Source of the DNA: a virus | Length of the DNA stretch: 49,302 nucleotides | Reading direction: 5' to 3' (one strand) | Virus record (IMG/VR): IMGVR_UViG_3300031566_000067 | Location: 1 to 49,302 of that record | Shown: piece after piece, positions 4,314-24,718 of the stretch | How positions within the stretch are numbered: position 1 is the stretch's first letter | How the letters are laid out: each line of letters begins with the position of its first letter | Translations under genes and position numbers: made by a program | The notes under the pieces: generated by a model | What the model was told of the DNA's origin: nothing | Databases searched by the model: none | What the model saw: the letters and a program-made list of their open reading frames with translations, nothing else

Positions 4314-4850
4314 TCATGCCAGAAGCCAGTTTTCGATTCGCTTGATGACATCGGCGGAGGTATGCCCGTCCCACCTCGGAGCGCGGTCTAGGTATCGGGC
4401 TCCGGAGTTGAAGGCGAGGGGGAGCAACCGGGTTGGGAGATGGTAGGTGATCGGTTGGTGCCCCAGCGTGCAACCGGCAATGAACCAGCCCTCCATGCCC
4501 TTCCCGTCGTCATGTAGAAGGGCAAACCATGAATGGATCGAATCGTCCCCCATCATCGCCAGAAAGAGCATGTGACGGTGTTCGTAGAGTTCGTTGAAGG
4601 TGTGATACCCATCCGAGACTTCTCCCTTGTCCTCTTCGTCCTGCGACATCGCCGGAACGCCGAAACTTGTCATGTGCTCGCGAATACTTTTTAGCTGATC
4701 GGCCAGAACTTGTTCGACCGTTGCGACATAGAAAGCAGCCTCTTCCAGCAGCATCATGGTCTGATCGTTCCCGACGTTGCCAAAGGCGATTCCCGCAGCT
4801 TCGGCTCTCAGGCGCTCGTTTAGTGTTTTTGTTTTCGGTTGGTCGCTCAT
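4314..4850 (-). CDS. Conserved phage protein with WDGHTS motif
   Basis: A 178-residue protein. Residues about 80-105 carry GYHTFNELYEHRH and the C-terminus carries WDGHTSADVIKRI, a pair I associate with a widespread phage hypothetical protein in which a central Trp-Phe-Ile-Ala segment follows an Asp-Gly-Lys loop. The N-terminal 70 residues are helical and differ from the common core. The biochemical function of the family is not known to me. It is coupled to the HTH-like gene upstream by ATGA overlap (4847-4850). Confidence 0.7.
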   Translation of the reverse strand: MSDQPKTKTLNERLRAEAAGIAFGNVGNDQTMMLLEEAAFYVATVEQVLADQLKSIREHMTSFGVPAMSQDEEDKGEVSDGYHTFNELYEHRHMLFLAMMGDDSIHSWFALLHDDGKGMEGWFIAGCTLGHQPITYHLPTRLLPLAFNSGARYLDRAPRWDGHTSADVIKRIENWLLA

Positions 4851-5062: not shown

Positions 5063-5862
5063 CCCCCAAAGAGTTCGTCTTCTTTTGTGTATGCGGAAAA
5101 TCCTTCGGCATACTGTTGTTTCGTCCATTCGGCCTTTAGAAGACCGCGATAATAGTTATGAGCATCCGGGTCTGCCTCTCTCGGCATCCCGAAAAACTTC
5201 GAGATGTATGCGGAGTGAGGTAGGGTGCAGGGCAAGCCGGTCAGGTTTTCAGGGTGATCCACCTTGAATGGTCTTATGTCCTTCCCCAGCGCGTGCATAA
5301 GTTGAGCGGACAGTTCAACGAACATAATCGAAGTCGGGTGATTGACATTAAGAAGGATTCTACTGTTGCGATGTTCGAGCATCCATTTCGTCAGCTTCAG
5401 ATCGGTGTTCTCTTCTCGCCTCGCCTGTTCCGCCAGACAGTGCAGGAAGCGCGACCAGAGGGCGAAGTCCATAGTCCCCTGATCGTAGTGGTTCAGGAGT
5501 TCATTCAGAGGCATCTGCCAATACCCAGCATTGATAAACTCTGCGCCGATGTATTTGCCGCCGTGCTCAGTTAAAGGATAGAAGGCGTGATTGTAGACGT
5601 AGGCGAAGGAGATCGTCTCGGCATGAACCGGGATCTTCGTAAGCATATTCTCCGAAGAGGAATCCCCGTGCTTGTCGTTGGTCGGTTGATAGACGAACAG
5701 GTCGCATTGCTTGGAGTCTCGTTCGAGATCCGCCATACTCTGTTCACCAATGATTATCTGGTAATTTCGATAGACCGTGATCTGGTAATCGAATCCCATC
5801 ATCGGGAGAAAGAGAGCCAACCCGTCAGCTTGGCAGTTGGAATAGATGACACACTTTTTCAT
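5059..5862 (-). CDS. WcbI-like polysaccharide biosynthesis protein
   Basis: A 267-residue protein. The N-terminus MKKCVIYSNCQADGLA carries the SNCQ nucleotide/CoA-loop signature of WcbI-type capsule enzymes. It is followed about 50 residues later by CDLFVYQPTND, another landmark of the family. WcbI proteins bind CoA or acetyl-CoA and are thought to decorate capsular polysaccharide, probably by acetyl transfer. The start at 5862 is fixed by ATGA overlap with the zinc-ribbon gene upstream; the longer upstream extension reads as non-coding. Together with the TylF-like gene it places glycan-modifying functions outside the late operon. Homologues in phages are usually cargo genes. Confidence 0.72.
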   Translation of the reverse strand: MKKCVIYSNCQADGLALFLPMMGFDYQITVYRNYQIIIGEQSMADLERDSKQCDLFVYQPTNDKHGDSSSENMLTKIPVHAETISFAYVYNHAFYPLTEHGGKYIGAEFINAGYWQMPLNELLNHYDQGTMDFALWSRFLHCLAEQARREENTDLKLTKWMLEHRNSRILLNVNHPTSIMFVELSAQLMHALGKDIRPFKVDHPENLTGLPCTLPHSAYISKFFGMPREADPDAHNYYRGLLKAEWTKQQYAEGFSAYTKEDELFGG

Positions 5863-8890: not shown

Positions 8891-10849
8891 ATGGACCTAC
8901 TTCAGACGATCCTTGAGGATTACCCGGAACCAGAACTTCTCGCACGGATAGATTGGCTCGCTGAGGTCCGCGAACATTGCGTGGCCGGGAACTGGAAAGC
9001 CGGAGCGAAATTGCTCCAGATGGGGGCGAAGACGAACAAACAGGTTGGCTCTGAAGAACAGGCTCAGAAGTTCGTCCATGACTTTTTCATGGATCTGTTG
9101 GAAGCGGACCATTACCTCGAAGCCTCAGCACTGGCATGGTCACGCGGACTTTTCGAGCAACGTCCTCTCTGTGTTAAAAGGGTATTCGATGCCCTCCAGA
9201 ACGAGGATCTTGTGATCCTTCTCGGTGCGTCCGGCCAGTCGAAGACCTACTCCGCCGCCGCGTTCTGTTCGCTGGATTTCATGCGAGATCCACAGAACAC
9301 CTCAGTCAAGTTTGGCTCAGTCAATGATACCAATCTGAAGGGCAACCTCTGGTCGAACCTACGGACCTTCCAAGAGCAATCCCTCTTCCCGATCGATCTC
9401 TACCCGAATGAGACCCGGATGCGGATGAGACCCATGAATGCCCGACCCGATTGCGGGATCGATGCCGTCCTGTTCTCGAAGCAACGGGACTCAACCGGTA
9501 AGATCAAGGGGTTCCATCCCAAACCCTTCCGCCTGAAGAAACACCCCAAATACGGGGATTTGACCGTTGTGCGGATCTTGCTCGACGAAACGCAAGAATT
9601 GTCTCCCGGCGTCCAGTCCGACTTGGGTTCCCCGATGTCCACGATCGACCGTGGAGCCGGGCACATGAAGATCATCCTCACCGGCAATCCGATCGATGAA
9701 GGCAAGTGGGTTGTCCAGATGGCGCAGCCGCCCGGAGGATGGGAAGAGTCCAAGATCGACGAACTCAAGGAATGGACGGCAAACGGCTGGCACGTGGTCA
9801 GACTCGACGGTGCCGACTTCGAGAACGTGAAATACGGCAAGACCGTGTTCCCCGGCTTTCTCACCCGACAGGCATACGACGCCTACATGAACGATGGGAT
9901 GCCGACTCCCAATTGGTATATCTTCGCCCGTGGCTGGCCCCCACCCGGACGGGCCAAGGAGACCGTCGTTCCCTCCACGTGGTTCGATCACGCCAAAGCT
10001 GAACCGATCTTCCTTGGGGCGACTCGCGGCATTCTTGGGGCGGATCTGGCGTTCATCAACGACAAGGCAATGATCGCAGTCGGGAGGTATGGAACGGCAA
10101 CCGGTTGGCTGGATTGGGAAGGCAACGAGCATAGGTTCGCTTCCCGCAAGACCCCCAACCAATTCGAGGCCCGGCATTGCTGTGTTCTCGATCGCCTGAT
10201 TACGATCAGGGCAACCGATAACCACGGGGTTGCAGAGGAAATCAAGCAGTGGGCCGAGTCCTTGGACATAGAACCCAACCACTGCGTCATGGATATGACC
10301 GGCAACGGATTCGGAGTTGTCTCCCATCTCCAGAAGTTTTGGGGTGCAGTTGAGGGGGTTCACTGGAAGGAGGGCGCGACCAAGGGGAAGATTCTGGTCG
10401 AGGATAAGTTCCCAGCCGATGAGCAGGCCAAGAACAAGATTTCCGAGATGTATTGGACGGTCCGCCGCTGGATCGATCCACGGGTCAGGGGGTTCTTTAT
10501 CAATCCCAACTGTGAAAACTGGCAGGCTGTTCGCCGTCAGTTGACCACCCGCGCCTACAAGCCGGACGGAGTGAAGGTTCTGGTGGAGTCCAAAGAGGAA
10601 TACCTGAAACGCTTTCCAATCTCCCCGGATGAAGCGGACGCAACGGTGATGATGTGCCTTGCTCCACGTGTCCGAGGTCTTCAGCTTCCCGCTCTGGTAG
10701 ACGAAGATGCAAGGGTCTCTCGCATCGCCTCGAAGGATGGCACGAAATACCGGACATCAGATCGCGCAGACAGTAAATCCCCCGCGTGGGCCAGCACTCA
10801 TTTGGGCGGAATGAAGGAAGTCAGACTCCCGACTCAGCTTTCAAGGTAG
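8891..10849 (+). CDS. terL: Terminase large subunit
   Basis: A 652-residue DNA-packaging motor. The ATPase part has a Walker A-like loop GASGQSKT (112-119) and Walker B ILLDE (229-233, D232/E233). The RNase-H-like nuclease part has acidic residues in GADLAF (D385), VMDMTGNG (D468) and SPDEADA (D580/D583), the expected three-part metal site. It should cut concatemers and pump DNA into the prohead through the portal encoded at 12081. No small terminase is found immediately upstream, as would be usual; the HTH protein just downstream is the only nearby candidate. The start ATG at 8891 has no obvious ribosome site, like many genes here. Confidence 0.9.
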   Translation: MDLLQTILEDYPEPELLARIDWLAEVREHCVAGNWKAGAKLLQMGAKTNKQVGSEEQAQKFVHDFFMDLLEADHYLEASALAWSRGLFEQRPLCVKRVFDALQNEDLVILLGASGQSKTYSAAAFCSLDFMRDPQNTSVKFGSVNDTNLKGNLWSNLRTFQEQSLFPIDLYPNETRMRMRPMNARPDCGIDAVLFSKQRDSTGKIKGFHPKPFRLKKHPKYGDLTVVRILLDETQELSPGVQSDLGSPMSTIDRGAGHMKIILTGNPIDEGKWVVQMAQPPGGWEESKIDELKEWTANGWHVVRLDGADFENVKYGKTVFPGFLTRQAYDAYMNDGMPTPNWYIFARGWPPPGRAKETVVPSTWFDHAKAEPIFLGATRGILGADLAFINDKAMIAVGRYGTATGWLDWEGNEHRFASRKTPNQFEARHCCVLDRLITIRATDNHGVAEEIKQWAESLDIEPNHCVMDMTGNGFGVVSHLQKFWGAVEGVHWKEGATKGKILVEDKFPADEQAKNKISEMYWTVRRWIDPRVRGFFINPNCENWQAVRRQLTTRAYKPDGVKVLVESKEEYLKRFPISPDEADATVMMCLAPRVRGLQLPALVDEDARVSRIASKDGTKYRTSDRADSKSPAWASTHLGGMKEVRLPTQLSR

Positions 10850-11520: not shown

Positions 11521-12084
11521 ATGCTGGAGGTAAAGAGAGGTCACGCGAAGCCGCCAAAGGACGGACATCGCTTCCCGATATATTCGGGTGGTTTCCTCAA
11601 GGGCGATACGGTCGAAGAAGTTCTTGAGAAGATGGAGGACTACCGGGCCGAGAATGCTTTCCCGCTCGATGACCCTGAAACCGATCTGGCGTATTTTTAC
11701 CTGAAGAATGCGAAGTATCTGGTTCGGGTGGTTGAGGGAGAACGCTTCAAACTTCCCTCTCTGATCATTGCTGAGGCGATCATGGCGCTCTGGCGCGAAC
11801 ACCCGAAGGTGATGCCTGCCGATTCCCTAATACCCGGTATCAGGTCGAAAACCTGTGCCTCTTGCCCTATGCGCCGGGAATTCCCCTATGGTCGAGACTT
11901 GGGGAGTTCCCGGCCATACGTGAAGAAGGCTCACCAGAGAGCGAGGATGCTCGCAGGAGATCGGGAAGTCGCGGAGGGGGATTACTGCCACATCTGTAAG
12001 ATCCCGTTGGATCTGATCAATCGGGTAGAAGCACCTGAGTTATTGCAGTCAGCGCCGAAAAGCTGTTGGGTCAGCGAGATATGA
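11521..12084 (+). CDS. Cysteine-containing hypothetical protein
   Basis: A 187-residue protein. The N-terminal half is mixed and contains a KYLVRVVEGE strand. The C-terminal half has CASCPM, CHICK and a final Cys-Trp. Together with nearby Arg/Lys residues, these five cysteines could bind zinc or an iron-sulfur cluster. Placed between terminase and portal and coupled to the portal gene by ATGA overlap. No known head protein matches it, so the role is open. Confidence 0.65.
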   Translation: MLEVKRGHAKPPKDGHRFPIYSGGFLKGDTVEEVLEKMEDYRAENAFPLDDPETDLAYFYLKNAKYLVRVVEGERFKLPSLIIAEAIMALWREHPKVMPADSLIPGIRSKTCASCPMRREFPYGRDLGSSRPYVKKAHQRARMLAGDREVAEGDYCHICKIPLDLINRVEAPELLQSAPKSCWVSEI

Positions 12085-14285
12085 TCGCCAATAACCTCAC
12101 CACATCCATTAATGAGAATTACGGGACACCCCCCGAAATTCCAGCCGGGAGCGAAGAATCGCTTACCCCGTCCACCGAGACAGAGTTTGCAATCAACAAC
12201 CCGTCACAGGCTCTCGCTGTAGCATACAGGTTGATTGAAGACTGGAAAAACGGCATCGCGAATCAAGCCGCCATCACGGCACAACTAAACGGCCAGCGAC
12301 CCCGAGATCCGGGCGTTCTGGAGAACTTGGGCCGCAACTGGCTCCCGAATATCAACGCTGGAGTCTTGCGGGTTGAAGCGGGGAAAGTCCCAGCCCGACT
12401 CTGGCAACCGATCAACACCGCAACCCATCTCACCGCCGCCAAACTCCCGGAGAACTGGCCGCAGGGCGTGAAGAAAACAGGGATCTTCCGCCAGAAGGTG
12501 ACACACACAATTCGCTCTTGGAGGAAATGGCCTTGGTTCATGCGCCAACTCGCAAGGGAAGTTGGATTCTTCGGGTTCGGCTACGCTGTTTGGTTCGATA
12601 AATTCGACTGGAAGCCAACGTTCGTTCGTCAGGACAGGGGGTTCGCCCCGATGGGATTCGAAATCCTCGAAGACGAGATGCCGGTTTTCTTGGTTAAGTA
12701 TGACTACCAGCCGCATGAACTCCTGAAACTGGTGAAGGCACAGGCCGATGCCGGAGTTGAAGAAGGCTGGGATAAAGAAGCAGTCGCAAACGCGATCAAC
12801 TCCGCGAGCCCGAAGGCACAGAACGCCGACAGACAGAATCTCCGCAGTTACGAAGAGATGATTCGGGAAGCCTCGATTGGGTGGACCTACGAGAAAGGGT
12901 ATAACAAAATCTTCACCTACCACATCTTTTCAACTGATGCCAATGGGTCCGTTTCCCATCACATCATGCTTGCCGCTGATCTGAAGAACTACACCCCGAA
13001 CCAGACGAAGGATAATGTCTCGCTGACCGGTGGGACCAAGTTCATTTACGAGAAGCGAAACAAGTTCAAGAAGTTGAGCGAAGCGGTTACGCCGCTGATG
13101 TTCGATCCGGACGATGGGACAATTCAAGGCTCTTGGGGTGCCGGACAAATGCTGTTCGATCTCTCAATTGAAGCCGAGAAGACGATCAACGATTGGATGT
13201 CCTCGATGAAGCAAGCCGCGAAGCTGAAGATTCAGGCTGGCGAGGGGAAGAATCCAGATGAGGTTCGTCTCGATGTGGATGATGCAATGATGGTTGTTTC
13301 CAATGGCACTTACGCCGGAAACACCGCAGCCGTATCCACAGATCCCCGACCGTTCCAAGCATTGTTTGACGCATTGGGGCAACTCGGACGTGAGAAGATT
13401 GGTTCACACATCCCACCGATCCCGCTTCAGCCCAGCGACATCAAAGCCACACAGTTCAACGCGAAACAGCGAGAACAGGAAGAGGTCAAAGAGCAGTTAT
13501 TCCAAACGTGGCTCTGGCAGTTTGCCTGCATGATCGAGAATATAGTCACGCGCTTGCTTGATTCAGATTCCCCGGATGATGATGCCAAGAAACTTCGCGA
13601 GGAACTTCTCATGGTAATGTCGAAGGAAGAGATCGATATGTTTGTGAACCAAAACCAGATCGAGACGATCATGGAGTTCACTGATTCCGCTAGAGCAAAA
13701 CGAGCAACCTTCGCCGCCGCAAAGCAGGGCAACACATTCTACAATCAGAAGGTTTTGGAAGAGATCCAAGCAGAAGCCGTAGGCGGAGCATCATTCATGG
13801 AAGCGGTCTTGATTCCCGGCGACGATGCCACAGTGGAAGCCGGAGCACGTCGCGATCAAATGGGCGAGACTTCAGATATGATCACGCTTCGGCGGATGGC
13901 TCCGGTTCTTCCCGGCGATCTCGATTGGTATCACATGACCGATCTGCGTCAGGATCTCACGAATTTCCTTGAACAAGGGATCTTCGACTTGGCGGCAATT
14001 CTTCTCAGCCACTATACCTCTCATTACGTTGGCGCAGTAGGTAAACAGGGAATGCCCAAGCAACTGATCAACGTCGAAAAAGCGTTCATCGCGAAAGCGG
14101 GGAAGGCGATTGAAACACAAGTTCTCCCGCCAGATGGGTTCGAGGATGACATCGATCCGATCGATCAGGCACAGGCGAATATGGCGAACCAGTCAACAAC
14201 CACATTGGGCCCGACAGATCGGCGTCCAGTTCCGGAAGTAGGGACAGGCGTAGAAGGGCGCGAAGCCCTCGTTGAAATGAGATGA
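12081..14285 (+). CDS. Portal protein
   Basis: A 734-residue protein, in the long size class of podovirus portals. The position after the terminase is one line of evidence. The other is the organisation: N-terminal wing, a central region with a Trp-rich stretch around residues 145-180 (RSWRKWPWFMRQLAREVGF), and a long alpha-helical stem/clip region. The C-terminus is helical with Gln/Ala-rich segments. It should form the dodecameric ring at the head vertex, binding terminase during packaging and the neck adaptor later. The start at 12081 overlaps the previous stop by four bases; a TTG 15 bases earlier is less likely. No odd features. Confidence 0.8.
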   Translation: MIANNLTTSINENYGTPPEIPAGSEESLTPSTETEFAINNPSQALAVAYRLIEDWKNGIANQAAITAQLNGQRPRDPGVLENLGRNWLPNINAGVLRVEAGKVPARLWQPINTATHLTAAKLPENWPQGVKKTGIFRQKVTHTIRSWRKWPWFMRQLAREVGFFGFGYAVWFDKFDWKPTFVRQDRGFAPMGFEILEDEMPVFLVKYDYQPHELLKLVKAQADAGVEEGWDKEAVANAINSASPKAQNADRQNLRSYEEMIREASIGWTYEKGYNKIFTYHIFSTDANGSVSHHIMLAADLKNYTPNQTKDNVSLTGGTKFIYEKRNKFKKLSEAVTPLMFDPDDGTIQGSWGAGQMLFDLSIEAEKTINDWMSSMKQAAKLKIQAGEGKNPDEVRLDVDDAMMVVSNGTYAGNTAAVSTDPRPFQALFDALGQLGREKIGSHIPPIPLQPSDIKATQFNAKQREQEEVKEQLFQTWLWQFACMIENIVTRLLDSDSPDDDAKKLREELLMVMSKEEIDMFVNQNQIETIMEFTDSARAKRATFAAAKQGNTFYNQKVLEEIQAEAVGGASFMEAVLIPGDDATVEAGARRDQMGETSDMITLRRMAPVLPGDLDWYHMTDLRQDLTNFLEQGIFDLAAILLSHYTSHYVGAVGKQGMPKQLINVEKAFIAKAGKAIETQVLPPDGFEDDIDPIDQAQANMANQSTTTLGPTDRRPVPEVGTGVEGREALVEMR

Positions 14286-14560: not shown

Positions 14561-16069
14561 ATGACACAAACAACCGAAGACATAACTCCGGCAGATCAAG
14601 CGTTCAAACCGTCAGACTCGTTCCGGGCGACGATGGATGCAGTTCAAGGCGGGGAAACCGACGAGCAGAAACTTCAGGACATTGCCACCAAAGCGATGCC
14701 TCAGAAGCCATCGATTGATCCGGTTGCCGACATAACTGCCAACGCTGAAGCCAAAGAGGCTGAGGAAGCCGCAGCACAGGCCGCAGCCGACGAGGAAGCA
14801 GCAGCCGCCGCCGCTGGAGAAGGCAAGACTTCCGAAGAGAAAGACGCCGAGACCTTGACCACGGATGAGGAAGCGGAAAAACGCGAAGAGATGCGTGCCA
14901 AACTCTCCAGCGAGGAACCCGCCGCAAAGATCGAGGATGACGAGATGCGCGGGATCAAGCCGACCGATCCGACTCGGTTCCAGAAGCGGGTGAACAACTA
15001 CGAGAAGCTGATCGGCGAAAAGGATCAACGACTCACAGAAGTTCAGGCGGAACTCAATACCCTTCAAGAGAAGATTGCCGCAGTCGAAGGAGTAGGGGCA
15101 CCGGAAGAGATTCAGGAACAACTGAATGAGTTGAAGCAGTATCGTCGGCGGTATGCGATCGAGCGTGACCCGGAGATCCAACAGCGATTTCAGGGGAAAA
15201 TCGATGAGTCCAACGAACTGATGGATGAAGCACTCGACAGCGCGGGTGTTTCCGTGAAGATGCGATCCCACATCAAGGAGATGGGTGGGGTCGCCGCGTT
15301 CCTAAAGTCGGGCGATACGATCGATTTCTTAGAACCCGGTCAGACCAAGAAGCAGAAACTCACACCGGGCCAGTATATCTCCAAGGCACTTGCCAATGCG
15401 CGAGCAGTCGCGCCGGATGCCGCCGCCATCTTCGAGTCTGAACTCGCAGCACAACGCCGCCTCGACAAAGAGAAGGCGAAGTTCATGGAGGGTGAAACGA
15501 AGGAGTCGAAGGAGTATTTCGATAAAATCGAGAACCGCGAAGCTGAAATCTCCAAACTCGGAGAGAATGCGGAAGAAGAACTTGAAAAGGTCATCCTCTC
15601 ATTCAAGACCACCGTTCACACCCGCGACTGGATGAAGAATCTGGTTGCTCCGGCTGATGCAAGCGATGATGTGAAGAAAGCGGTCGATGTTGATAATGCC
15701 TTCCGCAAAGACCTTCGCGGATACTTTGATCTTCAGACTCAGATTCCAGCAGTCCGCGAAGCCGCGAAACGAACGACTACTCAGCAACAGGCGGACGAAC
15801 TAGCCCGGTTGATCATCGATTCGGCTAGAGTATTTCACGTGGAGCGCGAGTTGAAAGCCGAGAAGGCGCGTTCTGAATTTCTACAGAAAGAAATCGACAA
15901 GGTTCGCAAGGGATCACGCTCAACCCCAGAGAAAAAGACCACAGGAGGTAGAACCCCAGCCGCCGACATTTCTGGTCAGCCAAAGAGGGAAAACTATTCG
16001 ACCAACCTACAATACGGGATCGAACTCAATCGCTGGAAAACCGCTAATGGCATCCCGATTGAGACATGA
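14561..16069 (+). CDS. Scaffolding-like coiled-coil protein
   Basis: A 502-residue acidic protein. Residues about 60-130 are very rich in Ala and Glu (EEAAAQAAADEEAAAAAAGE-like). Residues about 145-220 and 340-400 are predicted coiled coil, and the C-terminus is basic. This composition and the position after the portal fit a capsid scaffold. Unusually, the capsid gene does not follow directly: the glycan island is inserted and coupled to this gene by ATGA overlap at 16066. The role is inferred from layout rather than motif. Confidence 0.65.
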   Translation: MTQTTEDITPADQAFKPSDSFRATMDAVQGGETDEQKLQDIATKAMPQKPSIDPVADITANAEAKEAEEAAAQAAADEEAAAAAAGEGKTSEEKDAETLTTDEEAEKREEMRAKLSSEEPAAKIEDDEMRGIKPTDPTRFQKRVNNYEKLIGEKDQRLTEVQAELNTLQEKIAAVEGVGAPEEIQEQLNELKQYRRRYAIERDPEIQQRFQGKIDESNELMDEALDSAGVSVKMRSHIKEMGGVAAFLKSGDTIDFLEPGQTKKQKLTPGQYISKALANARAVAPDAAAIFESELAAQRRLDKEKAKFMEGETKESKEYFDKIENREAEISKLGENAEEELEKVILSFKTTVHTRDWMKNLVAPADASDDVKKAVDVDNAFRKDLRGYFDLQTQIPAVREAAKRTTTQQQADELARLIIDSARVFHVERELKAEKARSEFLQKEIDKVRKGSRSTPEKKTTGGRTPAADISGQPKRENYSTNLQYGIELNRWKTANGIPIET

Positions 16070-16854
16070 GCGAGGAACAGGAAGTCTACGGATCGGATGA
16101 AATCATAGAGTCGGACGTTCCCGGCTACATGGATCACTCGCCGATGTTCGATGGGGCGAAGGCAATCCTGTGCATGGCAGTTTACATGCACGTCGAGCCG
16201 GAAGCGATGGAGTCGCTTATGATCGCAATGTCCCGGTTTGACCGGACGGTTCTCCGGTTTATGTCACAGGAAAAGACCTGTGTTTGGGAGTCGCGCAATC
16301 GACTGGCTCACCGGTTCCTTGAGACCGATTCAGATTGGATGATCTTCATCGATGCCGATATGGCGATCCCGTGTGGCAATGCCACTTATTTCAATACCCG
16401 ATTCCGCCAGAAACTTCCTGATCGAATCGCTGGGATGAACGCGATTCAGCGTCTCCTTTCACACTCCGGGAACATCGGGGTTATCGGAGCATCCTACTTT
16501 GATCGCCAGATCGGGACACAGCTTCAATGTTCCAGAGGATGCGGCACGATGGCGGAGGTTGGGTTCAATGAACGTTTCCGGCGCGGAGAGGTTACGGGAG
16601 TTCATGAAGTGCTTTGGACGGCGACAGGGGGCATGAGGATTCATCGTTCAGTCTTCGAGAAGATCCGGGACAACAAGGACAAGTTCCCCGAGATCATCCC
16701 GCGCAAGGAAGGCGGAATTTGGGGATACTTCACACCGCATCGGGTAAGCATGGGAGAGGATGTTGCATTCTGTGCCCGAGCCCGATTGTCAGGATTCAAA
16801 ATCTGGCAGGACTTCGATCTGCGATTCATGCACAAAAGCCATCACTTCAACTAA
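16066..16854 (+). CDS. Family-2-like glycosyltransferase (GT-A fold)
   Basis: A 262-residue protein. IFIDADMA at 94-100 gives a clear DxD metal/nucleotide-sugar site (D96, D98). A Gly-Ala-Ser-Tyr-Phe acceptor strand follows, then TGGMRIHRSVF. The late MGEDVAFC...GFKIW is the ED base and downstream helix typical of GT2 enzymes. There is no membrane segment, so it should act in the cytoplasm. It is the first gene of the island and is translationally coupled to the scaffold-like gene. The target sugar and acceptor are unknown. The fold call is strong and the precise family moderate. Confidence 0.8.
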   Translation: MSEEQEVYGSDEIIESDVPGYMDHSPMFDGAKAILCMAVYMHVEPEAMESLMIAMSRFDRTVLRFMSQEKTCVWESRNRLAHRFLETDSDWMIFIDADMAIPCGNATYFNTRFRQKLPDRIAGMNAIQRLLSHSGNIGVIGASYFDRQIGTQLQCSRGCGTMAEVGFNERFRRGEVTGVHEVLWTATGGMRIHRSVFEKIRDNKDKFPEIIPRKEGGIWGYFTPHRVSMGEDVAFCARARLSGFKIWQDFDLRFMHKSHHFN

Positions 16855-16856
16855 TC

Positions 16857-17543
16857 ATGCAAAAACAACCGAAATTCCCACTGATCGCAACTGCCGCAAC
16901 CCGCGCCGTTCTTGAGTCTCCAATCTTCCCACAGGTTCTCGAACATTGGGCCGAGGTCGCTAACCGGGTTATCGTAGTGATCCCACAAGGGGCACAGGCA
17001 CCCGCCGTTCGTAAAGTGCGATTCATGCAAGTCAGTCGAAACATCCCGAGTCTCGGAGACGTGGTTACTGAAGTGAACAAGGGGATGGATTATGTCGTCA
17101 ATAATGCCGCGATCGTTGACCCGTTCACCGTTTTCAAGTGGGATGCCTTCCAGATATTCGAGATCGGCAAACGCCGTCAGCTTTCCCTCTCTTGGGTAGC
17201 GACCGCTCACCCGGTTCGCCTGATCGATTTTGATACCCCGACTGGAGTAGATGAAACGCAACTTTCGTTCTTCTGCGGAGCGGAATCAATTTGGGCATTC
17301 TTGAACAACCGGGAGCCGCCAGAACACGTTCCCTTTGTCAGCCCGGCATGGTCAGGTTGGCTGGCTCACTGGTGTTCCCAGCACGTCCACACCCACAAAT
17401 ACCACGACGTAACGGATCTGAAGGCGATCGGTCTCTTGGAGGATATTCCGGTCGAAGAGGTATCGCTTGAAGGGATCGGGAAACTGACCTTCAATCCCCC
17501 GATGCGCAATTACGTAACCAAGGGATCACGTGTTTCCCTATGA
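16857..17543 (+). CDS. Possible nucleotide-sugar transferase-like protein
   Basis: A 228-residue protein. It begins with an alpha/beta opening (FPLIATAATRAVLES) and has YVVNNAAIVDP at about 84-93, where a GT-A enzyme would show DxD; here both metal-binding Asp are replaced by Asn. Later segments (SWVATAHPVRLIDFD, FFCGAESIWAF) are consistent with a GT-like fold. It could be a degenerate partner or an enzyme using another mechanism. Three bases separate it from the previous gene and it is ATGA-coupled to the next. Confidence 0.45.
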   Translation: MQKQPKFPLIATAATRAVLESPIFPQVLEHWAEVANRVIVVIPQGAQAPAVRKVRFMQVSRNIPSLGDVVTEVNKGMDYVVNNAAIVDPFTVFKWDAFQIFEIGKRRQLSLSWVATAHPVRLIDFDTPTGVDETQLSFFCGAESIWAFLNNREPPEHVPFVSPAWSGWLAHWCSQHVHTHKYHDVTDLKAIGLLEDIPVEEVSLEGIGKLTFNPPMRNYVTKGSRVSL

Positions 17544-18445
17544 GCAAGATATTATACGCCCTCCAGTATCACGCTGGAGACCAGAAGGCGGCGATGTCTC
17601 TTGCCCGACTGATGGCGGACATCATCCCTGAGAAGAAGTGCCTCGATGCTGATATGATGTTCGCAGCCAGCGCGAACGCGGACATCGATATGGCAACCGT
17701 CCGGTATTGCGCCCGGAAGTTCGCTCAAGTCCGGACGTTTCGGTGCATCAAGGATATTAACGGCTGGCCTGCGGGTCCGAACAATCAGGCGCATGAGGTT
17801 GCCCGGTATTTTGCCCAACAGGTCCAGACCGACAGATGGAAATACACCGGTATTCTGATGGGGGAACCCGATTGCGTCCCCACCCGGCGAGATGTGTTCA
17901 GCCTCTTGAACGAGGAATGGAAGAAAGGTCCGCATACTATTCTCGGTCCTTGGGTCACATCGGGCCCAGCCCCGTATAATCAGCACATCAACGGCAACTC
18001 GATCTTCGGTCCGGCTTTCATTTACACGAATCCGGACCTGTTTCGATGTGATCCGTGGATAGGATGGGACGCGGCGAATGCGAACTTCATCATGCACCAC
18101 GGTCGCGCTTCCCTCTGGATGTATTCCGATTACCAACTCGGAACCGAGCAAAACCCTTGGAAGGGGTGTGAACACCTGTTCTCGGATCGTCCGTTGCGCC
18201 AACCACACCCATTCTGGAATCTTCGGACACAGAAAGTTGCCTACGTCCACGGCGTAAAACGCTGGGATCTGGCGCAGGCATGTGTTCGCGAACGCCTATT
18301 AGGAGAAACAATAGATGAAAGCCTCAAACATGAACCAATCCTCCCTGCCGTCGAACCTCCCTCGCCTGTTTCGCCCCCCGAGACTCCACCGGAAACAGCA
18401 GACCACAAGCAAGGGGGAGGAACTGGTATCGCGCCCGGCTTCTGA
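17540..18445 (+). CDS. Glycosyltransferase-like protein with proline-rich tail
   Basis: A 301-residue protein. The core has YTGILMGEPDCVPTRRDVF with an acidic E-P-D in DxD position (about residues 110-115) and NGNSIFGPAFIY (about 155-165), the donor/acceptor loop pattern of several phage and capsule GT-A enzymes. Residues about 265-301 form a proline-rich tail (PPSPVSPPETPPET) overlapped by the next gene in another frame. Its likely role is sugar transfer within the island pathway. Exact family not recognised. Confidence 0.6.
   Translation: MSKILYALQYHAGDQKAAMSLARLMADIIPEKKCLDADMMFAASANADIDMATVRYCARKFAQVRTFRCIKDINGWPAGPNNQAHEVARYFAQQVQTDRWKYTGILMGEPDCVPTRRDVFSLLNEEWKKGPHTILGPWVTSGPAPYNQHINGNSIFGPAFIYTNPDLFRCDPWIGWDAANANFIMHHGRASLWMYSDYQLGTEQNPWKGCEHLFSDRPLRQPHPFWNLRTQKVAYVHGVKRWDLAQACVRERLLGETIDESLKHEPILPAVEPPSPVSPPETPPETADHKQGGGTGIAPGF
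18301..18305 (+). promoter_or_regulatory. Ribosome binding site inside the preceding gene
   Basis: AGGAG, nine bases before the ATG at 18315. It is one of the clearest ribosome sites in the window and supports translation starting inside the end of the upstream glycosyltransferase-like gene. Confidence 0.6.
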
Positions 18446-18746
18446 GGCGAGTTCTGATGGGACGCCTGCGGCGAGTTCTGAGGGCACGTTCGTTATCAAG
18501 GTGAAGCAGTTCGTTTTCCCTACCGGAGAAGAACAGGAAGCGACGGTTAAACTCCCGATCGACGTTGCCGCCTTGCATAAGGAAATGACCGATGCGGGGT
18601 TTCACTTCGTTGCCGACTTCCTCACCCCTCTGACGCTTACCGTCTCAATCACCAACGGCAAAAAGCACACCGCGATTCGGGAGATCGAATTACGGTCAAT
18701 CAAGCACGTCATGGCGGATATGCTCGTCGAGGGCTCTTGGAAATGA
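18315..18746 (+). CDS. Hypothetical protein overlapping the upstream gene by 131 bases
   Basis: A 143-residue protein. Residues 1-43 are encoded in the overlap and are basic, Ser/Pro-rich and low in order. Residues about 57-143 form a conserved-looking alpha/beta domain (TFVIKVKQFVFPTGEEQEA, then ALHKEMTDAGFHFVADF) with no family recognised. The AGGAG at 18301 supports the early start; an internal start would leave the domain without a good codon. ATGA coupling to the next gene continues the operon. Confidence 0.55.
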   Translation: MKASNMNQSSLPSNLPRLFRPPRLHRKQQTTSKGEELVSRPASEASSDGTPAASSEGTFVIKVKQFVFPTGEEQEATVKLPIDVAALHKEMTDAGFHFVADFLTPLTLTVSITNGKKHTAIREIELRSIKHVMADMLVEGSWK

Positions 18747-19372
18747 AACCAACCGTCTTTACCTATCACCAGAAGATCCCGACTTGGAATCACGGTCAGA
18801 TCCTCAATGTCTGGAAACAGAACTGGCGACGGCACAACTGGCGTCCGCTTGTTATGGGCCGGGAGATGGCGAAGCGCCACCGGATGTTCGGGGACTTCAT
18901 CACCAAGATCCGGACCTTCCCCACGATCAACGATCCGGCATACGAGGAAGCCTGTTACATTCGCTGGCTGGCATTCGAGGTCATGATCGACGCCACCGAT
19001 GGACGGGCGACGATGAGCGATTACGATGTCTTCAACAACGGATTCACCGCCGAAGATATGGGGACAGATGATGTCGTTTGCCATGAGATCACGCAGGTTC
19101 CCTGTCTAGTCAGCGCCAACAAAAAGGGAGCACGCGAGATCGTAGAGTTCATCATGAGCCGCAAGCCCGATTTCGGGATCGGGCACTATTCGGATATGAT
19201 TGCGTTCAAGGAATCAAACTGGCCGATCTCCGGATTCTGTCAGGAGTTGGGGGAGATTCGAGGCAATTGCCCGTGGTCGGAAGCCAAGACGATCCATGCC
19301 GCCTCTGGAGCAATCGACCGGGAAGCGCACGGGACGGACAAAACGAAATACATCATGCAACACTACCGATGA
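18743..19372 (+). CDS. Glycosyltransferase-like protein
   Basis: A 209-residue protein. It begins VFTYHQKIPTWNHGQILNVWKQNW, as in transferases that start with 'F-x-Y-W' strands. ATMSDYDVFNNGF at about 91-103 gives an S-D-Y-D metal motif. The C-terminal CPWSEAKTIHAAS may contribute the acceptor-side histidine. These point to a GT-A-type enzyme, but the match is by layout. Coupled by ATGA on both sides, which makes it an integral member of the island. Confidence 0.55.
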   Translation: MKPTVFTYHQKIPTWNHGQILNVWKQNWRRHNWRPLVMGREMAKRHRMFGDFITKIRTFPTINDPAYEEACYIRWLAFEVMIDATDGRATMSDYDVFNNGFTAEDMGTDDVVCHEITQVPCLVSANKKGAREIVEFIMSRKPDFGIGHYSDMIAFKESNWPISGFCQELGEIRGNCPWSEAKTIHAASGAIDREAHGTDKTKYIMQHYR

Positions 19373-20031
19373 TGAAATATAAACGATGCGCTCTCGCGTC
19401 CTATCCCCGATCCGGGAACACATGGATGCGCCACCTGATTTACAACGCAGTTGGACTCAAGAGCGCCTACATCACGAATCCGGAGACGGGCGACGTTCAC
19501 AAGTCCGCCGCGATCCCAGAGATCGCCGATGTTGATTCACCCTTGGTCAAGACTCACGATCTGAACACGCGCCCATTCGATGCCGCGATTCACATCGTCC
19601 GCAATCCGTTCAACGCGATCGCTTCGTATCTGGATTACTGCCATAGGTTCAATGTTCCAATCCAGCGCCGGAGTTGGTTCATAAAGACAGAGGCAATAGG
19701 ATGGAATAAGCATAGCGAATACTGGCGTCTTGCCAGAGAGTCGGGGGTTCTCGAAGGGTATCATCGGGTCCGCTACGAGGATCTTCTCGTCGATACGAAT
19801 GGAGAACTCTGGAAGGTCGTCCACGATTTTCTTGGGTTCGATATTGATCCCGGAGCAGTCGAACAGGCTGTTACAGATTGCAGTCTCGCCAAGATGCAGG
19901 CGAAGGGATCGGAAGAGTTCTACCCCAAAGGGTTCTCCCGGAGATACTCGGATACCTTGACCCGTGTGGAGATTGATCAGATTGGACATATAGTTAGATA
20001 CGAACTTGCACACCTGATAAACGACGAATGA
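19369..20031 (+). CDS. PAPS-dependent sulfotransferase
   Basis: A 220-residue protein. All main sulfotransferase marks are readable: the 5'-phosphosulfate loop SYPRSGNTW (11-19), the catalytic KTH (K61, T62, H63), and the 3'-phosphate site VRNPFNAIASY (77-87, with R78 and S86). The late KGFSRRYSDTLT resembles the family's terminal substrate/PAP segment. It should move sulfate from PAPS to a hydroxyl, probably of a sugar, in the cytoplasm. PAPS must come from the host, since no sulfate-activation genes are in the window. It is coupled by ATGA to the glycosyltransferase-like gene and to the methyltransferase that follows. Rare in phages as far as I know. Confidence 0.85.
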   Translation: MMKYKRCALASYPRSGNTWMRHLIYNAVGLKSAYITNPETGDVHKSAAIPEIADVDSPLVKTHDLNTRPFDAAIHIVRNPFNAIASYLDYCHRFNVPIQRRSWFIKTEAIGWNKHSEYWRLARESGVLEGYHRVRYEDLLVDTNGELWKVVHDFLGFDIDPGAVEQAVTDCSLAKMQAKGSEEFYPKGFSRRYSDTLTRVEIDQIGHIVRYELAHLINDE

Positions 20032-20615
20032 AAAACTACAACGAACGCCTCTTACACCTTCTAAACCGGGATCATCTCCCGGCGTTCCTCAACATCAATT
20101 ACCCCCACGAAAAGATGGTCGAGGTCGGGACGTATCACGGGGTTTTCGCCGAACACATCGCCCGGCATTGGAAGGGGGAACTGACTTGCATCGATCCTTG
20201 GGCTGATCAACCCGACGCCGTTTATCGTGACGGGTGCGCTAATGGCGGAGTCGCCGGAGGGCGAAACCCGATGGGTCCAATCTTCGAAGAAGCGAAAAGA
20301 AGACTCTTGGATGCCGGGGGCAAGGTTACGATGATCGCATCCTACTCAGTGGATGCAATGCCCCGGTTCAACCACGGAAGTCTCGCTGTCGTCTACGTGG
20401 ACGGGAACCACTCCTACGAGACCGCCTTTCAGGATCTAACCGGGTGGTGGGGTAAAATCAGATGTGGAGGCTTGATTGGAACCCACGATTGTTACATACG
20501 AAAAGATGCCGTGCAGAACTGTGGAGTTTGGGATGCCGTATGGGACTTCGCTCATCAAATCGACCAAAAGCCGTTTTTAACCAATTGTGGCTCCGCGTGG
20601 TGGATCAAACCATGA
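20028..20615 (+). CDS. SAM-dependent class I methyltransferase
   Basis: A 195-residue protein. MVEVGTYHGVFAEHI (30-44) is motif I with the Glu/Asp-x-Gly loop. LTCIDPW (52-58) is the ribose-binding acidic end. VVYVDGNHSYETAFQDL gives the VDGNHSYE motif of the Methyltransf_24 type used in sugar and glycan methylation. The following GGLIGTHD carries a second acidic residue, as in metal-assisted enzymes. ATGA-coupled to the sulfotransferase and to a second methyltransferase. Confidence 0.8.
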   Translation: MKNYNERLLHLLNRDHLPAFLNINYPHEKMVEVGTYHGVFAEHIARHWKGELTCIDPWADQPDAVYRDGCANGGVAGGRNPMGPIFEEAKRRLLDAGGKVTMIASYSVDAMPRFNHGSLAVVYVDGNHSYETAFQDLTGWWGKIRCGGLIGTHDCYIRKDAVQNCGVWDAVWDFAHQIDQKPFLTNCGSAWWIKP

Positions 20616-21163
20616 ACAAATACTTTGAACCCTATCTGGCGGAACTGTTTCACCAGAGCGACATCAATGAGCATTTGCCGATCCTCTTCACGTTGGGTCT
20701 CCAGTGCCAGACGATCGTGGAATTCGGGGTCCGCTCCGGCTGCTCGACCAAGACGTTTCTCGCATCCTTGCAAATGCAGGCGAGGCGATCCTGCCTGTAT
20801 TCCTACGACATCAACAATTGCGCCCAAGTATTAGGACAGGTGGGGGCGCTAGGGACCGACTCGAACACGCTCTGGACGTTCGTTCAGGCGGACACCGCCC
20901 ATCTGGAGATGATTCCGGAATGTGATCTCCTGTTCATCGACACCCTCCACACCCACAATCAGGTTGTCGCGGAGGTCGAACATCACAAGTCAGTCCGCAG
21001 GTTCATGGTCTTCCACGACACGGTTCTGTTCGGGGTCAACGGAGAACAGGGTCAGCCGGGAATCCGAATCGCAATCGACACCTTTCGCCATAGAAATCCA
21101 CAATGGAGAATTCTTTGGGAATACCGTCACAACAATGGTCTATTGATCCTCGAACGAAGATGA
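20612..21163 (+). CDS. SAM-dependent class I methyltransferase
   Basis: A 183-residue protein. IVEFGVRSGCSTKTFL at about 35-50 is motif I, SYDINN follows as the acidic loop, and LLFIDTLHTHNQVVAEVEHH with MVFHDT carries the Methyltransf_24-like metal and acidic residues. It differs clearly from its neighbour, so the pair is not a recent duplication. It probably methylates the same glycan at another position. Starts by ATGA overlap. Confidence 0.78.
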   Translation: MNKYFEPYLAELFHQSDINEHLPILFTLGLQCQTIVEFGVRSGCSTKTFLASLQMQARRSCLYSYDINNCAQVLGQVGALGTDSNTLWTFVQADTAHLEMIPECDLLFIDTLHTHNQVVAEVEHHKSVRRFMVFHDTVLFGVNGEQGQPGIRIAIDTFRHRNPQWRILWEYRHNNGLLILERR

Positions 21164-21897
21164 AAAAAGAACACCAACTACTCAGCCTGATCCTTGGGCT
21201 CATCGCGTTAGCCGTAGGGCTCAACGCCGCCGAACTTCGGCTCAACTGGCAAGATAACTCAGACAATGAATCAGGCTTCCTGATCGAGAGATCGATCGAT
21301 GGGGGTTCAGAGTTCCTGATTATCGATCAAACTTTGGTCAACGAAGAGACCTATCTCGATACCGGGTTGATCGGGGATACCGAATACTGGTATCGGGTCA
21401 GAGCCTACAACTCGTTTGGGAACTCTGGAGCCACCAACGTAGCCTCTGCGATCACCAACCCTGACGGCAACCCACCCACCCCGCCGACTGCCCTTTCGCT
21501 GGAAATGGCCGGGAAGCTGACGAACATCTCCAGCCGGGGACTGGTCGAAGTGGATCAACAGATCGTGATCGGCGGATTCGTCATCGAGGATGGACCGGTC
21601 AAGATCCTGATGCGCGGAGTCGGTCCGACACTCTCTCAGTTTGGAATCACGAATCCTTTGCCAAACCCACGGATCTCTCTGGTCCTTCAGGATGGCACGG
21701 TGGTTCTGGAGAACGACAACTGGAGCGGAACCGATGTGGCTCAAGCCGCCGCCGATGTTGGTGCCTTCCCGCTTCCCGCTGGGTCTCTGGATGCCGCCCT
21801 TCTGATCAACCTTCCACCGGGCACTTATACGACTCACCTCTCAGGAGTCGGCGGGATGCAGGGGGTTGCGTTGCTTGAAATCTACGCCGTCCATTAA
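21160..21897 (+). CDS. Secreted FN3-like protein with Verrucomicrobiota-type C-terminal domain
   Basis: A 245-residue protein. Residues 1-22 are a signal peptide (basic start, LLSLILGLIALAVGL, then NAAE). Residues about 24-110 form a fibronectin-III-like domain (WQDNSDNESGFLIERS, WYRVRAYNSFGNSG). Residues about 120-245 form a second beta domain (NISSRGLV, ILMRGVGPTL, PPGTYTTHLSGVGG) that I associate with exported proteins of Verrucomicrobiota such as Opitutales. It is the strongest host clue in the window. It may be displayed on the virion or exported. ATGA-coupled to the methyltransferase, so it is expressed with the island, and its stop overlaps the antisense gene by four bases. Confidence 0.72.
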   Translation: MKKEHQLLSLILGLIALAVGLNAAELRLNWQDNSDNESGFLIERSIDGGSEFLIIDQTLVNEETYLDTGLIGDTEYWYRVRAYNSFGNSGATNVASAITNPDGNPPTPPTALSLEMAGKLTNISSRGLVEVDQQIVIGGFVIEDGPVKILMRGVGPTLSQFGITNPLPNPRISLVLQDGTVVLENDNWSGTDVAQAAADVGAFPLPAGSLDAALLINLPPGTYTTHLSGVGGMQGVALLEIYAVH

Positions 21898-22373
21898 TCT
21901 TCTGGCCGGACCGCCGCCGGACCCGGAGTGTTCGGAAGATTTGCCACAAACCATTCTGTGATAGGCACCCCGTTGACCGTTTCAACCGGCGCGGGGTGTT
22001 CATCATCCCAAGTAATCCAGTAACCCCTTTCATTCCGGAAGAAAGCCAACTCACCAGTATGTTCGAGCGCGATCGTAGCCTTGCCTACCTCCCCCACCGC
22101 CGCCCAATAGGAGGGAAGATAATCGAGATCCCCAACCTGTGCATCGTTGAATCCCTCGTCGATCGCCAGTTGCTTGAACCGCCCGATCTCGTTCTCAGGA
22201 ATGGCGATCAACGTTCCGGACCCGGACAGGCGGGTAACGATGAAGAACTCCAACTGGCCGGGAACCCTCTTTGAATAGTTAAACTCCATCCGGATCGGGA
22301 GTTCGATCATCGAGACCTCAGCGAAGACCAAACTGAACAGGAGACAGAATAATATGATCAATCGTTTGTGCAT
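21894..22373 (-). CDS. Secreted hypothetical protein on the opposite strand
   Basis: A 159-residue protein with a clear signal peptide (MHKRLIILFCLLFSLVFA). The mature part is beta-rich and contains no recognised domain. It is the only minus-strand gene in more than 40 kb of late plus-strand genes. It is convergent with the FN3 gene (four-base overlap) and its start overlaps by 20 bases the start of the next plus gene. This isolated, exported gene has the features of a 'moron' expressed on its own. Superinfection control is one possibility, without direct evidence. Confidence 0.6.
   Translation of the reverse strand: MHKRLIILFCLLFSLVFAEVSMIELPIRMEFNYSKRVPGQLEFFIVTRLSGSGTLIAIPENEIGRFKQLAIDEGFNDAQVGDLDYLPSYWAAVGEVGKATIALEHTGELAFFRNERGYWITWDDEHPAPVETVNGVPITEWFVANLPNTPGPAAVRPED
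22339..22343 (+). promoter_or_regulatory. Ribosome binding site before 22354
   Basis: AGGAG, ten bases before the ATG at 22354. It lies within the opposite-strand gene, so the two genes share their 5' ends. Confidence 0.55.
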
Positions 22374-23025
22374 GGTATTGGCCCACGGTGGGGCACAGGC
22401 TACGGTTTTGCGACATCTTCCGATCTGGAAATCACTTCATGATCGGGTGATCCTCTGTTCCCCGGCTGATGACCCGCTCAATCTCCCGAATCACTGGAAT
22501 TTCGTGACCGGTCGATCCTCTCTCTATGCCACGGAGACCAACGCTAGAGCGCATGAGGCGATGCGACTGGCGAGCGAACTGCATCCTCATACATTGACCA
22601 TTTGCGAGTATGATGCTCTCTTGTGGAGATGGCCGGAAGCGTCCATTCCGATGATGGGTCCGGATGGTGTAATAGGGTCAGTATTCACCAGTGCGGACCC
22701 ATCATTCAGGGGGAAGTTCTACATCCACTCCCCGATAATCTTCGGGCCGAGGGCAATTCAAATGGTTCTCACGGCGATGGATCACCTCCCGCCCGATGCC
22801 GAACGCGGGTTCGGGGATCGATACTTCGGACTGGCAATCGAGATGGCAAAGATCCCGGTAACAGACGGGCACGCTCACGGACTCTCCTACTCTCAGAACC
22901 ACATCGAGCCCAAGCACATACCTGAAGCGATCCACGCCATCAAAAACGGCGCGTGCTTCACTCACGGAGTCAAGGACGCCCCTACTCTTGCGAAATTAGC
23001 ACAGGCAGCAAAAATTGTTGGTTGA
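22354..23025 (+). CDS. Glycosyltransferase-like protein
   Basis: A 223-residue protein. It starts with VLAHGGAQATVLRH and contains TICEYDALLWRWP (about residues 75-87), an acidic E-Y-D in the DxD position. The later SPIIFGPRAIQMV and ERGFGDRYFGLA segments are like acceptor and base loops of GT-A proteins in polysaccharide clusters. The start at 22354 follows an AGGAG; an ATG at 22372 is an alternative. It is the last gene of the island. Its stop lies inside the first dyad repeat region (23021-23053). Confidence 0.55.
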   Translation: MINRLCMVLAHGGAQATVLRHLPIWKSLHDRVILCSPADDPLNLPNHWNFVTGRSSLYATETNARAHEAMRLASELHPHTLTICEYDALLWRWPEASIPMMGPDGVIGSVFTSADPSFRGKFYIHSPIIFGPRAIQMVLTAMDHLPPDAERGFGDRYFGLAIEMAKIPVTDGHAHGLSYSQNHIEPKHIPEAIHAIKNGACFTHGVKDAPTLAKLAQAAKIVG

Positions 23026-23053
23026 CGGGTAGGCAGAATTTGCCGATTCCTAT
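23021..23053 (+). repeat. Direct repeat, left copy, with phage dyad copy b
   Basis: GTTGACGGGTAGGCAGAA followed by TTTGCCGATTCCTATT. It matches 23271-23298 (GTTGATAGGTAGGCAAAA, then GATTCCTATT), except for two substitutions before the shared AGGCA, one after it, and a six-base gap. Bases 23029-23044 are the dyad GTAGGCAGAATTTGCC. Together the two copies flank the small basic ORF. Confidence 0.65.
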
Positions 23054-23060
23054 TACTACT

Positions 23061-23282
23061 ATGCCACTAATAGAACGAGGACCAGCAAGAGGATTAACGG
23101 GCGGCGATCCTTTTAGCACCCGAAAAAAAGTGACCTCAATTGCCAAGGCAGCAATGAAAGGCCCATTGACAGACGTAACAGTTTCGGCGATAAAGAAGAT
23201 TAAGGAAAGCGATAGGGGCGTAATGAAGTCGATGTTGCCGAAGAAAGTGAAGGTTTCCGTGGCGAAAAGCGTTGATAGGTAG
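23061..23282 (+). CDS. Small highly basic protein between repeats
   Basis: A 73-residue protein, rich in Lys (KKVTSIAKAAMKG, SAIKKIKES, PKKVKVSVAK). No family was recognised. The ATG at 23061 has no ribosome site and a CTACTAT box runs directly into it, so the message may be leaderless. The stop codon lies inside the right-hand direct repeat. A basic protein next to the capsid gene could be a DNA- or capsid-binding protein; the flanking repeats instead suggest a small inserted cassette. Confidence 0.5.
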   Translation: MPLIERGPARGLTGGDPFSTRKKVTSIAKAAMKGPLTDVTVSAIKKIKESDRGVMKSMLPKKVKVSVAKSVDR

Positions 23283-23321
23283 GCAAAAGATTCCTATTGA
23301 CACCCGGCAAAAATTGCCTAC
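23271..23321 (+). promoter_or_regulatory. Direct repeat right copy and phage dyad copy c, capsid promoter candidate
   Basis: Bases 23271-23298 repeat the left copy. TTGACA (23297-23302) is a perfect -35 box, with ACCTAT at 17-base spacing (23320-23325). Between them, GGCAAAAATTGCCTAC (23306-23321) is the exact reverse complement of dyad copy a at 1827-1842; identity extends to 20 bases (23302-23321). This is the best promoter candidate for the capsid gene, with the dyad placed where an operator or activator would act. Confidence 0.6.
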
Positions 23322-23402
23322 CTATTAGTTCCGGCGTAAGGGTTATCCCGCCCATCGTGTTCGCCAACGAGAAGGGTAGTTGTGTAGATCGTCTCCCACA
23401 AC

Positions 23403-23439
23403 GGACGAAGCGTAGGAACGGATTTCCGTGCGCCCGTCC
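23403..23439 (+). promoter_or_regulatory. Structured leader hairpin of the capsid gene
   Basis: GGACG (23403-23407) pairs with CGTCC (23435-23439). Inside this, GCG pairs with CGC and GGAA with TTCC, making a nested stem in the ~170-base untranslated leader of the capsid gene. It may stabilise the message or control capsid translation. A second short pair (GTTGTG/CACAAC, about 23379-23402) precedes it. Confidence 0.45.
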
Positions 23440-23494
23440 AGTCCTGCGTTGAATCCCCCTTGGGCGTGCGAGCAGTTAATAATTCGCACACACA

Positions 23495-24718
23495 ATGTCA
23501 GATTTCACCGCATGTTCACAAGCTGAACTCAATACCGGCATCGCCGCTCAGAGTTCACGTGTGCGCCTCGAAGCGATTGAATGGGATGCTCTCAACAACC
23601 CTTACTCAAATCTCATCGACGGCGGCACTCAGGAAGCACATACCGGCGCGACCATTACCACAGTGGTTCCCGAGCGTGTTGTCCTCAATCAGTCGATGAC
23701 CGTTCCCGACACAGTTCTAAAGACCGCCCTTTGTGGACGGACCGGAACTGAAGCGGAATACGGAATGACCCAATACACGACCCAGCTTCGAGCAATCGAT
23801 GGCAAAGGTCCGTTGCTTTGCGTCCATCAGGCGTTCCACCTCGTAGAGCGTGGTCTGATCACGATGGAACAGGGTCTCCGCAATGCGATCACCGACCTGT
23901 CAATGGCAGATATTCGAGCACAGTTGCTCATTCTGTCAGGTTACAAGTTCGTTATGACCGCGACTGGTTCCCCGCTCGATAACATCACGGGTGGAGAGAA
24001 TCAGGTTCAGGTCGATTTCTCTGGAGCGAATCCTTCGTCCGAGATGACTCACCAAGCACTCATCAATCTTCGAAACATCATGTTCGAGGAAATGAATGTG
24101 ACTCCGTTCGGTTCGGGCGATGGTGCCTATGCCGTTTGGATCGGATCTCTCAGTATCATCGAGAAGATGCGAAATGAGTCCGGTCTGAAGACTGAAACTC
24201 TCGCGTTCGTTCAGGGTAGCGATTCCGCAGCCAAAGCTGCGATGCGTCGTTACACCTTCGCGCAGTATCCTTATCGGGGTATTCGCACGGCGATTGATCC
24301 GAAACCGCTTCGGTTCAACGAAATCGACATCGACGGGTTCCCGATCTTGATCGAGCCTTATGTCGAGGTCGCGACTGATCACGGTTCCGGCTGGAGAACG
24401 AATCCAGACTGGCGGACCGCCGCCAATGAAGTCGGGTTCTTGGTCTTCCAGAACACGTTTCGTCGGATTGTGCCTACCCGGTTTACCGGAGACGGTGCCG
24501 CTCAGTTCCCCGCTCAGTTCACAATGGGCGAGTTGAAATGGGTGAATCCTCAAACCTTGGAATGCAATGTCTGGCAGGATTACGGCCAGTTTGTTTTCCG
24601 GATCATCCGTGCGTATGAGGCGATCCAGCCTTACGCCGTTTGCCCGGTTCTCTACAAGCGTTGCAAGGAAGATTGGGGACAGACTGCCTGCACCGGTATT
24701 TCCGAGGCTGGCGACTAA
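23495..24718 (+). CDS. Major capsid protein
   Basis: A 407-residue protein, of usual size for an HK97-fold coat protein, and followed at once by a strong terminator as expected for a very highly expressed gene. An N-terminal arm is followed by a region beginning GPLLCVHQAFHLVERG (about residue 100), a long helix rich in Ala/Met, and beta-rich segments such as WIGSLSIIEKMRN and GFPILIEPYVEV. It should form the head shell. It has its own promoter candidate and long leader instead of coupling to the scaffold gene. Family assignment rests on context and layout. Confidence 0.75.
   Translation: MSDFTACSQAELNTGIAAQSSRVRLEAIEWDALNNPYSNLIDGGTQEAHTGATITTVVPERVVLNQSMTVPDTVLKTALCGRTGTEAEYGMTQYTTQLRAIDGKGPLLCVHQAFHLVERGLITMEQGLRNAITDLSMADIRAQLLILSGYKFVMTATGSPLDNITGGENQVQVDFSGANPSSEMTHQALINLRNIMFEEMNVTPFGSGDGAYAVWIGSLSIIEKMRNESGLKTETLAFVQGSDSAAKAAMRRYTFAQYPYRGIRTAIDPKPLRFNEIDIDGFPILIEPYVEVATDHGSGWRTNPDWRTAANEVGFLVFQNTFRRIVPTRFTGDGAAQFPAQFTMGELKWVNPQTLECNVWQDYGQFVFRIIRAYEAIQPYAVCPVLYKRCKEDWGQTACTGISEAGD

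Follow-up and report, generated by a model that had tools for sequence, protein, structure and literature searches.

The system closest to the locus described here is that of the Corndogviruses (cluster O mycobacteriophages; Firecracker gp33-36 and Catdawg gp33-36). In both Firecracker and Catdawg, the genes for the portal, an O-methyltransferase, three glycosyltransferases, the capsid maturation protease and the capsid stand in a row with short overlaps, one of the three glycosyltransferase genes of Firecracker being labelled hypothetical. In passages of two articles (PMC11600133 and PMC12363180, both citing Freeman et al. 2023), the Corndogvirus enzymes are reported to glycosylate the capsid and the tail tube. 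As far as the literature found goes, the phages whose own enzymes have been shown to glycosylate the virion are just a few mycobacteriophages. Phage gtr-type seroconversion operons encode a membrane flippase and a membrane-bound GtrB-like enzyme, and their glycosyltransferases could alter the host surface glycan.

The window, by which we mean the whole stretch of DNA analysed, is the 49,302-base IMG/VR virus record IMGVR_UViG_3300031566_000067; it is a fragment, because its last reading frame is still open where the record stops. It holds an island of about 7 kb (16066-23025, genes A to K) between a scaffold-like and a capsid-like gene, with a portal-like gene at 12066-14285 upstream and the capsid-like gene at 23495-24718 downstream. 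A search for this order in related phages, as proposed with the original prediction, yielded one relative with the island and the same arrangement, the 18.9-kb contig IMGVR_UViG_3300031539_000450, which spans terminase to capsid. The genes discussed below are as follows.

1039-1701, plus strand: TylF-type sugar O-methyltransferase (Pfam TylF, 1.2e-65)
5113-5862, minus strand: WcbI-like capsular polysaccharide biosynthesis enzyme, acyltransferase-like (Pfam WcbI, 6.4e-19)
8891-10849, plus strand: probable terminase large subunit (Walker-A-like GASGQSKTY, Walker-B-like LLDE, weak PHROG terminase matches)
12066-14285, plus strand: probable portal protein, by position and size (739 residues)
14561-16069, plus strand: inferred scaffold-like protein, acidic and Glu/Ala-rich, between portal and capsid
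16066-16854, plus strand: A, GT-A-like glycosyltransferase (DxD, here DAD, at residues 96-98; GED at 230)
16857-17543, plus strand: B, conserved enzyme-like protein (no profile match, no nameable glycosyltransferase motif)
17540-18445, plus strand: C, possible GT-A-like protein by motif (GEPDC, C-terminal HGVK)
18330-18746, plus strand: D, small protein overlapping C, start uncertain (C-terminal half homologous to a small protein of the relative)
18743-19372, plus strand: E, possible GT-A-like protein by motif (SDYD)
19369-20031, plus strand: F, PAPS-dependent sulfotransferase (Sulfotransfer_1, PF00685, E 1.4e-10)
20028-20615, plus strand: G, SAM methyltransferase (Methyltransf_24, 9.7e-17)
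20612-21163, plus strand: H, SAM methyltransferase (Methyltransf_24, 1.8e-7)
21160-21897, plus strand: I, FN3-domain protein with a hydrophobic, signal-peptide-like N-terminus (fn3, phrog_18315)
21894-22373, minus strand: J, protein with a signal-peptide-like N-terminus (codon-position GC resembling that of other genes)
22354-23025, plus strand: K, possible GT-A-like protein by motif (CEYD, C-terminal HGVK)
23495-24718, plus strand: probable major capsid protein, by position and conservation

Most structural proteins of the window match no PHROG or Pfam family. The product of 8891-10849 is read as the large terminase because of its Walker-type motifs, its weak matches to PHROG terminases (E 0.13 and 0.24) and the fact that an insert in the relative's terminase falls exactly in the Walker A motif. 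That terminase (L003 1682-4690) carries the insert in frame, over 348 residues, while the window's terminase lacks it, and we read it as a putative intein; a 4.5-kb terminase contig (L004) has the same spacing. The portal, scaffold-like and capsid-like proteins gave no match in profile searches, and we infer their identities from gene order, size and conservation. Compared with the relative, the portal is 69% identical, the scaffold-like protein 46%, and the capsid-like protein 90% over the 221 available residues, the highest conservation among the proteins compared.

Directly before the capsid gene, both phages keep a non-coding leader of about 175 bases (window 23320-23494; relative, L006 18068-18239), and the consensus RNA fold of these two sequences has three pairs kept by two-sided changes. 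Folded as a single sequence the leader is not significant (z about -1.2), and it has no match in Rfam. The motif GGTAGGCA occurs six times in the window against 0.5 expected, and three of these copies, possibly operator sites, lie around a small ORF (23061-23282) upstream of the capsid gene (window 23028-23322). Elsewhere in the window, 34434-37646 encodes a 1070-residue tail-like protein with Ig-like domains (He_PIG 1.5e-10; PHROG tail protein 8.9e-7), which is a possible adhesin and glycan acceptor, and the minus strand encodes a WDGH-domain protein at 4314-4850 (6.9e-26). A giant open-ended reading frame at 43481-49300 has RadC-like and DUF7178 domains, and its product appears to resemble polyvalent proteins, which some phages inject along with their DNA.

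Within the island, genes are joined by seven ATGA stop/start overlaps (scaffold/A, B/C, D/E, E/F, F/G, G/H and H/I), just as the four-base overlaps had been predicted, the first of them with the scaffold-like gene; the scaffold/A and F/G overlaps are retained in the relative. The GC content of the island is that of its neighbours, and it is therefore not a recent insert. Proteins A-H and K have no transmembrane-like segment, as expected for enzymes with a cytosolic acceptor, and a search against an anti-phage defence library gave no match. The minus-strand gene J, missed in the original prediction, interrupts the run between I and K. The secreted domain protein that had been predicted corresponds to I, in which the signal-peptide-like N-terminus is accompanied by an FN3 domain (fn3 1.5e-3, under the cut-off; phrog_18315 3.4e-9); searching genome contigs with I gave only weak FN3-level matches. 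Neither I nor J has a counterpart in the relative, and both are regarded as accessory genes.

Homology places F, G, H and the WcbI-like and TylF proteins in their enzyme classes, confirming the sulfotransferase, the two Methyltransf_24-like enzymes and the TylF-like and WcbI-like genes elsewhere in the window that had been named from the sequence at the outset. In addition to its Pfam match, F matches StaL and other sulfotransferases in the PDB (from 1e-8) and has the 5′-phosphosulfate (PAPS) loop motif PRSGNTW at residue 13, and H shows a weak match, under the cut-off, to the rhamnosyl O-methyltransferase/CmcI family (1.2e-3). The WcbI-like protein scores 68.9 bits against Pfam WcbI, above the curated cut-off of 29.2, and matches the capsular polysaccharide biosynthesis protein of PDB 4bqn (3.8e-11). 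The TylF protein, encoded outside the island, matches phrog_6608, the family of the Corndogvirus island methyltransferase (7.3e-9), as well as Firecracker gp33 by blastp (5e-9).

The predicted GT-A enzyme with a DxD is A, whose DAD motif is present as described. The protein matches phrog_1574, a family of function not known, at 6.4e-11 and, weakly, the glycosyltransferase family phrog_12406 at 5e-4, which suggests that A is probably a glycosyltransferase. The expectation of three or more glycosyltransferase-like proteins was not borne out by the profile searches, as B, C, E and K match nothing in Pfam, PHROGs or NCBIfam; C, E and K also gave no credible match in the PDB. Their GT-A-like acidic motifs make C, E and K possible glycosyltransferases, and the C-terminal HGVK common to C and K appears to be a shared motif and nothing further. 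The A-C, B-C, B-K and C-K pairs showed no relation when compared profile against profile. AlphaFold models of C and E from two-sequence alignments (pLDDT 34 and 36) were unusable for a fold search. B, C, E and K are candidate glycosyltransferase families outside every profile library.

The relative keeps the order scaffold-A-B-C-D-E-F-G-H-K-capsid, with protein identities of about 47-72% for A (72%), B (62%), C (71%), E (61%), F (47%), G (58%), H (about 50%) and K (59-61%), so that A and C are about as conserved as the terminase and the portal. The counterpart of D has diverged; its small protein (L002 4137-4406) aligns with the C-terminal half of D at a score of 90, against 24.6 ± 3.8 for shuffles. 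In every gene, codon positions 1 and 2 are more constrained than position 3, and since third-position differences far outnumber those at the first and second positions, all genes are maintained as proteins by purifying selection. Such selection on each gene, together with an order kept in an independent contig, argues that the island is not a product of chance. The WcbI gene of the relative (L002 4444-5193), 50% identical to that of the window, lies inside the island between C and E, and E begins within its stop. The WcbI gene is therefore tied to this gene set, and this placement is the strongest evidence that the WcbI-like enzyme would work with the island.

Scans of viral contigs recovered only the relative and the one 4.5-kb terminase contig. 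Searching annotated phages by tblastn with the terminase, A, C, E, F, H, K, the WcbI-like protein and the capsid gave no match, and G found generic O-methyltransferases only. Searches with E, C and K in up to 398 genomes each of several phyla gave no match or weak ones judged spurious, among them L025, rejected as a homologue because it reads as a von Willebrand A-like protein; K gave no match in genome contigs.

Taken together, we consider that the island is, with a probability of roughly 0.52, a virion-glycosylation cassette in the head-assembly operon, whose glycan would subsequently receive methyl, sulfate and perhaps acyl groups. After infection, translation of the island genes would accompany that of the scaffold gene. 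Sugars supplied by the host would be attached to a virion protein, most likely the capsid or a tail protein, by A and probably by some of C, E, K and B; G and H (and TylF) would methylate these sugars, F would add sulfate from PAPS, and acylation may be the task of the WcbI-like enzyme. The outcome would be a methylated, sulfated glycan coat that alters the surface charge and adhesion of the particle. In this scheme we infer the acyl step, the substrate, the sequence of the steps and the benefit, as well as what B, C, E and K do. The more specific proposal, that a phage pathway assembles on the phage's own capsid a glycan carrying sulfate, methyl and acyl groups by means of undescribed glycosyltransferase families, with production tied to scaffold translation, is a tentative one and rather doubtful.

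Glycosylation of the virion is favoured over remodelling of the host surface and over DNA modification because the enzymes look soluble, the set is coupled to the scaffold gene and the Corndogviruses offer a precedent; the position of the island and its conserved synteny favour it too. A cassette that remodels the host surface polysaccharide late in infection, for example blocking superinfection or making particles stick less to debris, would suit the membership of WcbI in a capsular polysaccharide biosynthesis family, the exported look of I and J, and the TylF and Methyltransf_24 families, whose substrates are sugars of secondary metabolism and of surface glycans. However, I and J are not kept in the relative, and the enzymes of the island lack transmembrane-like segments. 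The proteins scanned include no flippase, no polymerase and no membrane-bound undecaprenyl-phosphate transferase like those of gtr-type seroconversion. Tight coupling to the scaffold gene also points to late expression, a stage at which exclusion brings less benefit, so that we hold this explanation to be unlikely. Somewhat less likely still is a mixed gene set with no shared pathway, whose transferases work independently of one another on host metabolites or proteins and whose site is merely a tolerated place of insertion: the two phages differ in I, J and several small genes, WcbI is located differently in each and no function is assigned to B, C, E and K, but eight enzyme-like genes stand in the same order, under purifying selection, in phages whose core proteins differ by 10-54%.

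The lowest rank goes to modification of the bases of the phage DNA with sugars and further groups as a means of resisting restriction, which we regard as improbable even though, as one metagenomic study notes, nucleotide modification by glycosyltransferases and sulfotransferases has been reported in phages (PMC10829341). No base hydroxylase, thymidylate-synthase-like enzyme or other hypermodification starter is seen in the Pfam-scanned proteins (a subset of the ORFs of an incomplete genome), the genes lie in the head operon and not with replication genes, and the sugars on which the TylF and WcbI families act belong to small molecules or polysaccharides.

Several points count against virion glycosylation itself: homology evidence is missing for four of the five supposed glycosyltransferases, no island candidate is homologous to the Corndogvirus glycosyltransferases, no nucleotide-sugar genes are present among the proteins scanned, the window as a fragment may lack further relevant genes, its TylF and WcbI genes lie outside the head-gene block, and a place in a late operon leaves the substrate unproven. 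Of the original glycan-building reading, the transferase identities (sulfo-, methyl-, WcbI-type and at least one probable glycosyl-) and the coupling to head genes are retained; the glycan itself and its target are putative. A second, unrelated lineage with the same arrangement would suggest more than one origin for the decoration of phage heads with sugars, and the presence of a sulfotransferase would hint that phage particles bear charged glycans.

Among known systems, gtr-type operons share with this locus phage-encoded, here putative, glycosyltransferases that potentially alter the host surface glycan, whereas no membrane flippase or GtrB-like enzyme is seen in the window, itself a fragment, and the island enzymes look soluble and lie among head genes. 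Bacterial WcbI capsule clusters (PDB 4bqn) share the WcbI homology and the sugar-modifying enzymes alongside; the set here differs in standing in a phage head operon, with no polymer export or polymerase genes found. The likeness to the Corndogviruses is closer: in both, methyltransferase and (putative) glycosyltransferase genes with short overlaps lie between portal and capsid, and the TylF methyltransferase of the window is in the same family, although its gene is outside the island. In contrast to the window, the Corndogviruses have a protease gene between island and capsid, and the island proteins gave no significant match to Firecracker gp34-36 by blastp or phmmer. By analogy, the island most likely works like the Corndogvirus system, whether or not it belongs to it. 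The original prediction knew of no described phage system with this set; that is too strong, since the Corndogvirus arrangement does resemble it, but the window's set is larger, and its sulfotransferase, its two Methyltransf_24 enzymes and its WcbI-like enzyme are additions to the Corndogvirus one. New to the described set are the sulfotransferase, the WcbI-like enzyme and a group of conserved proteins with no assigned function.
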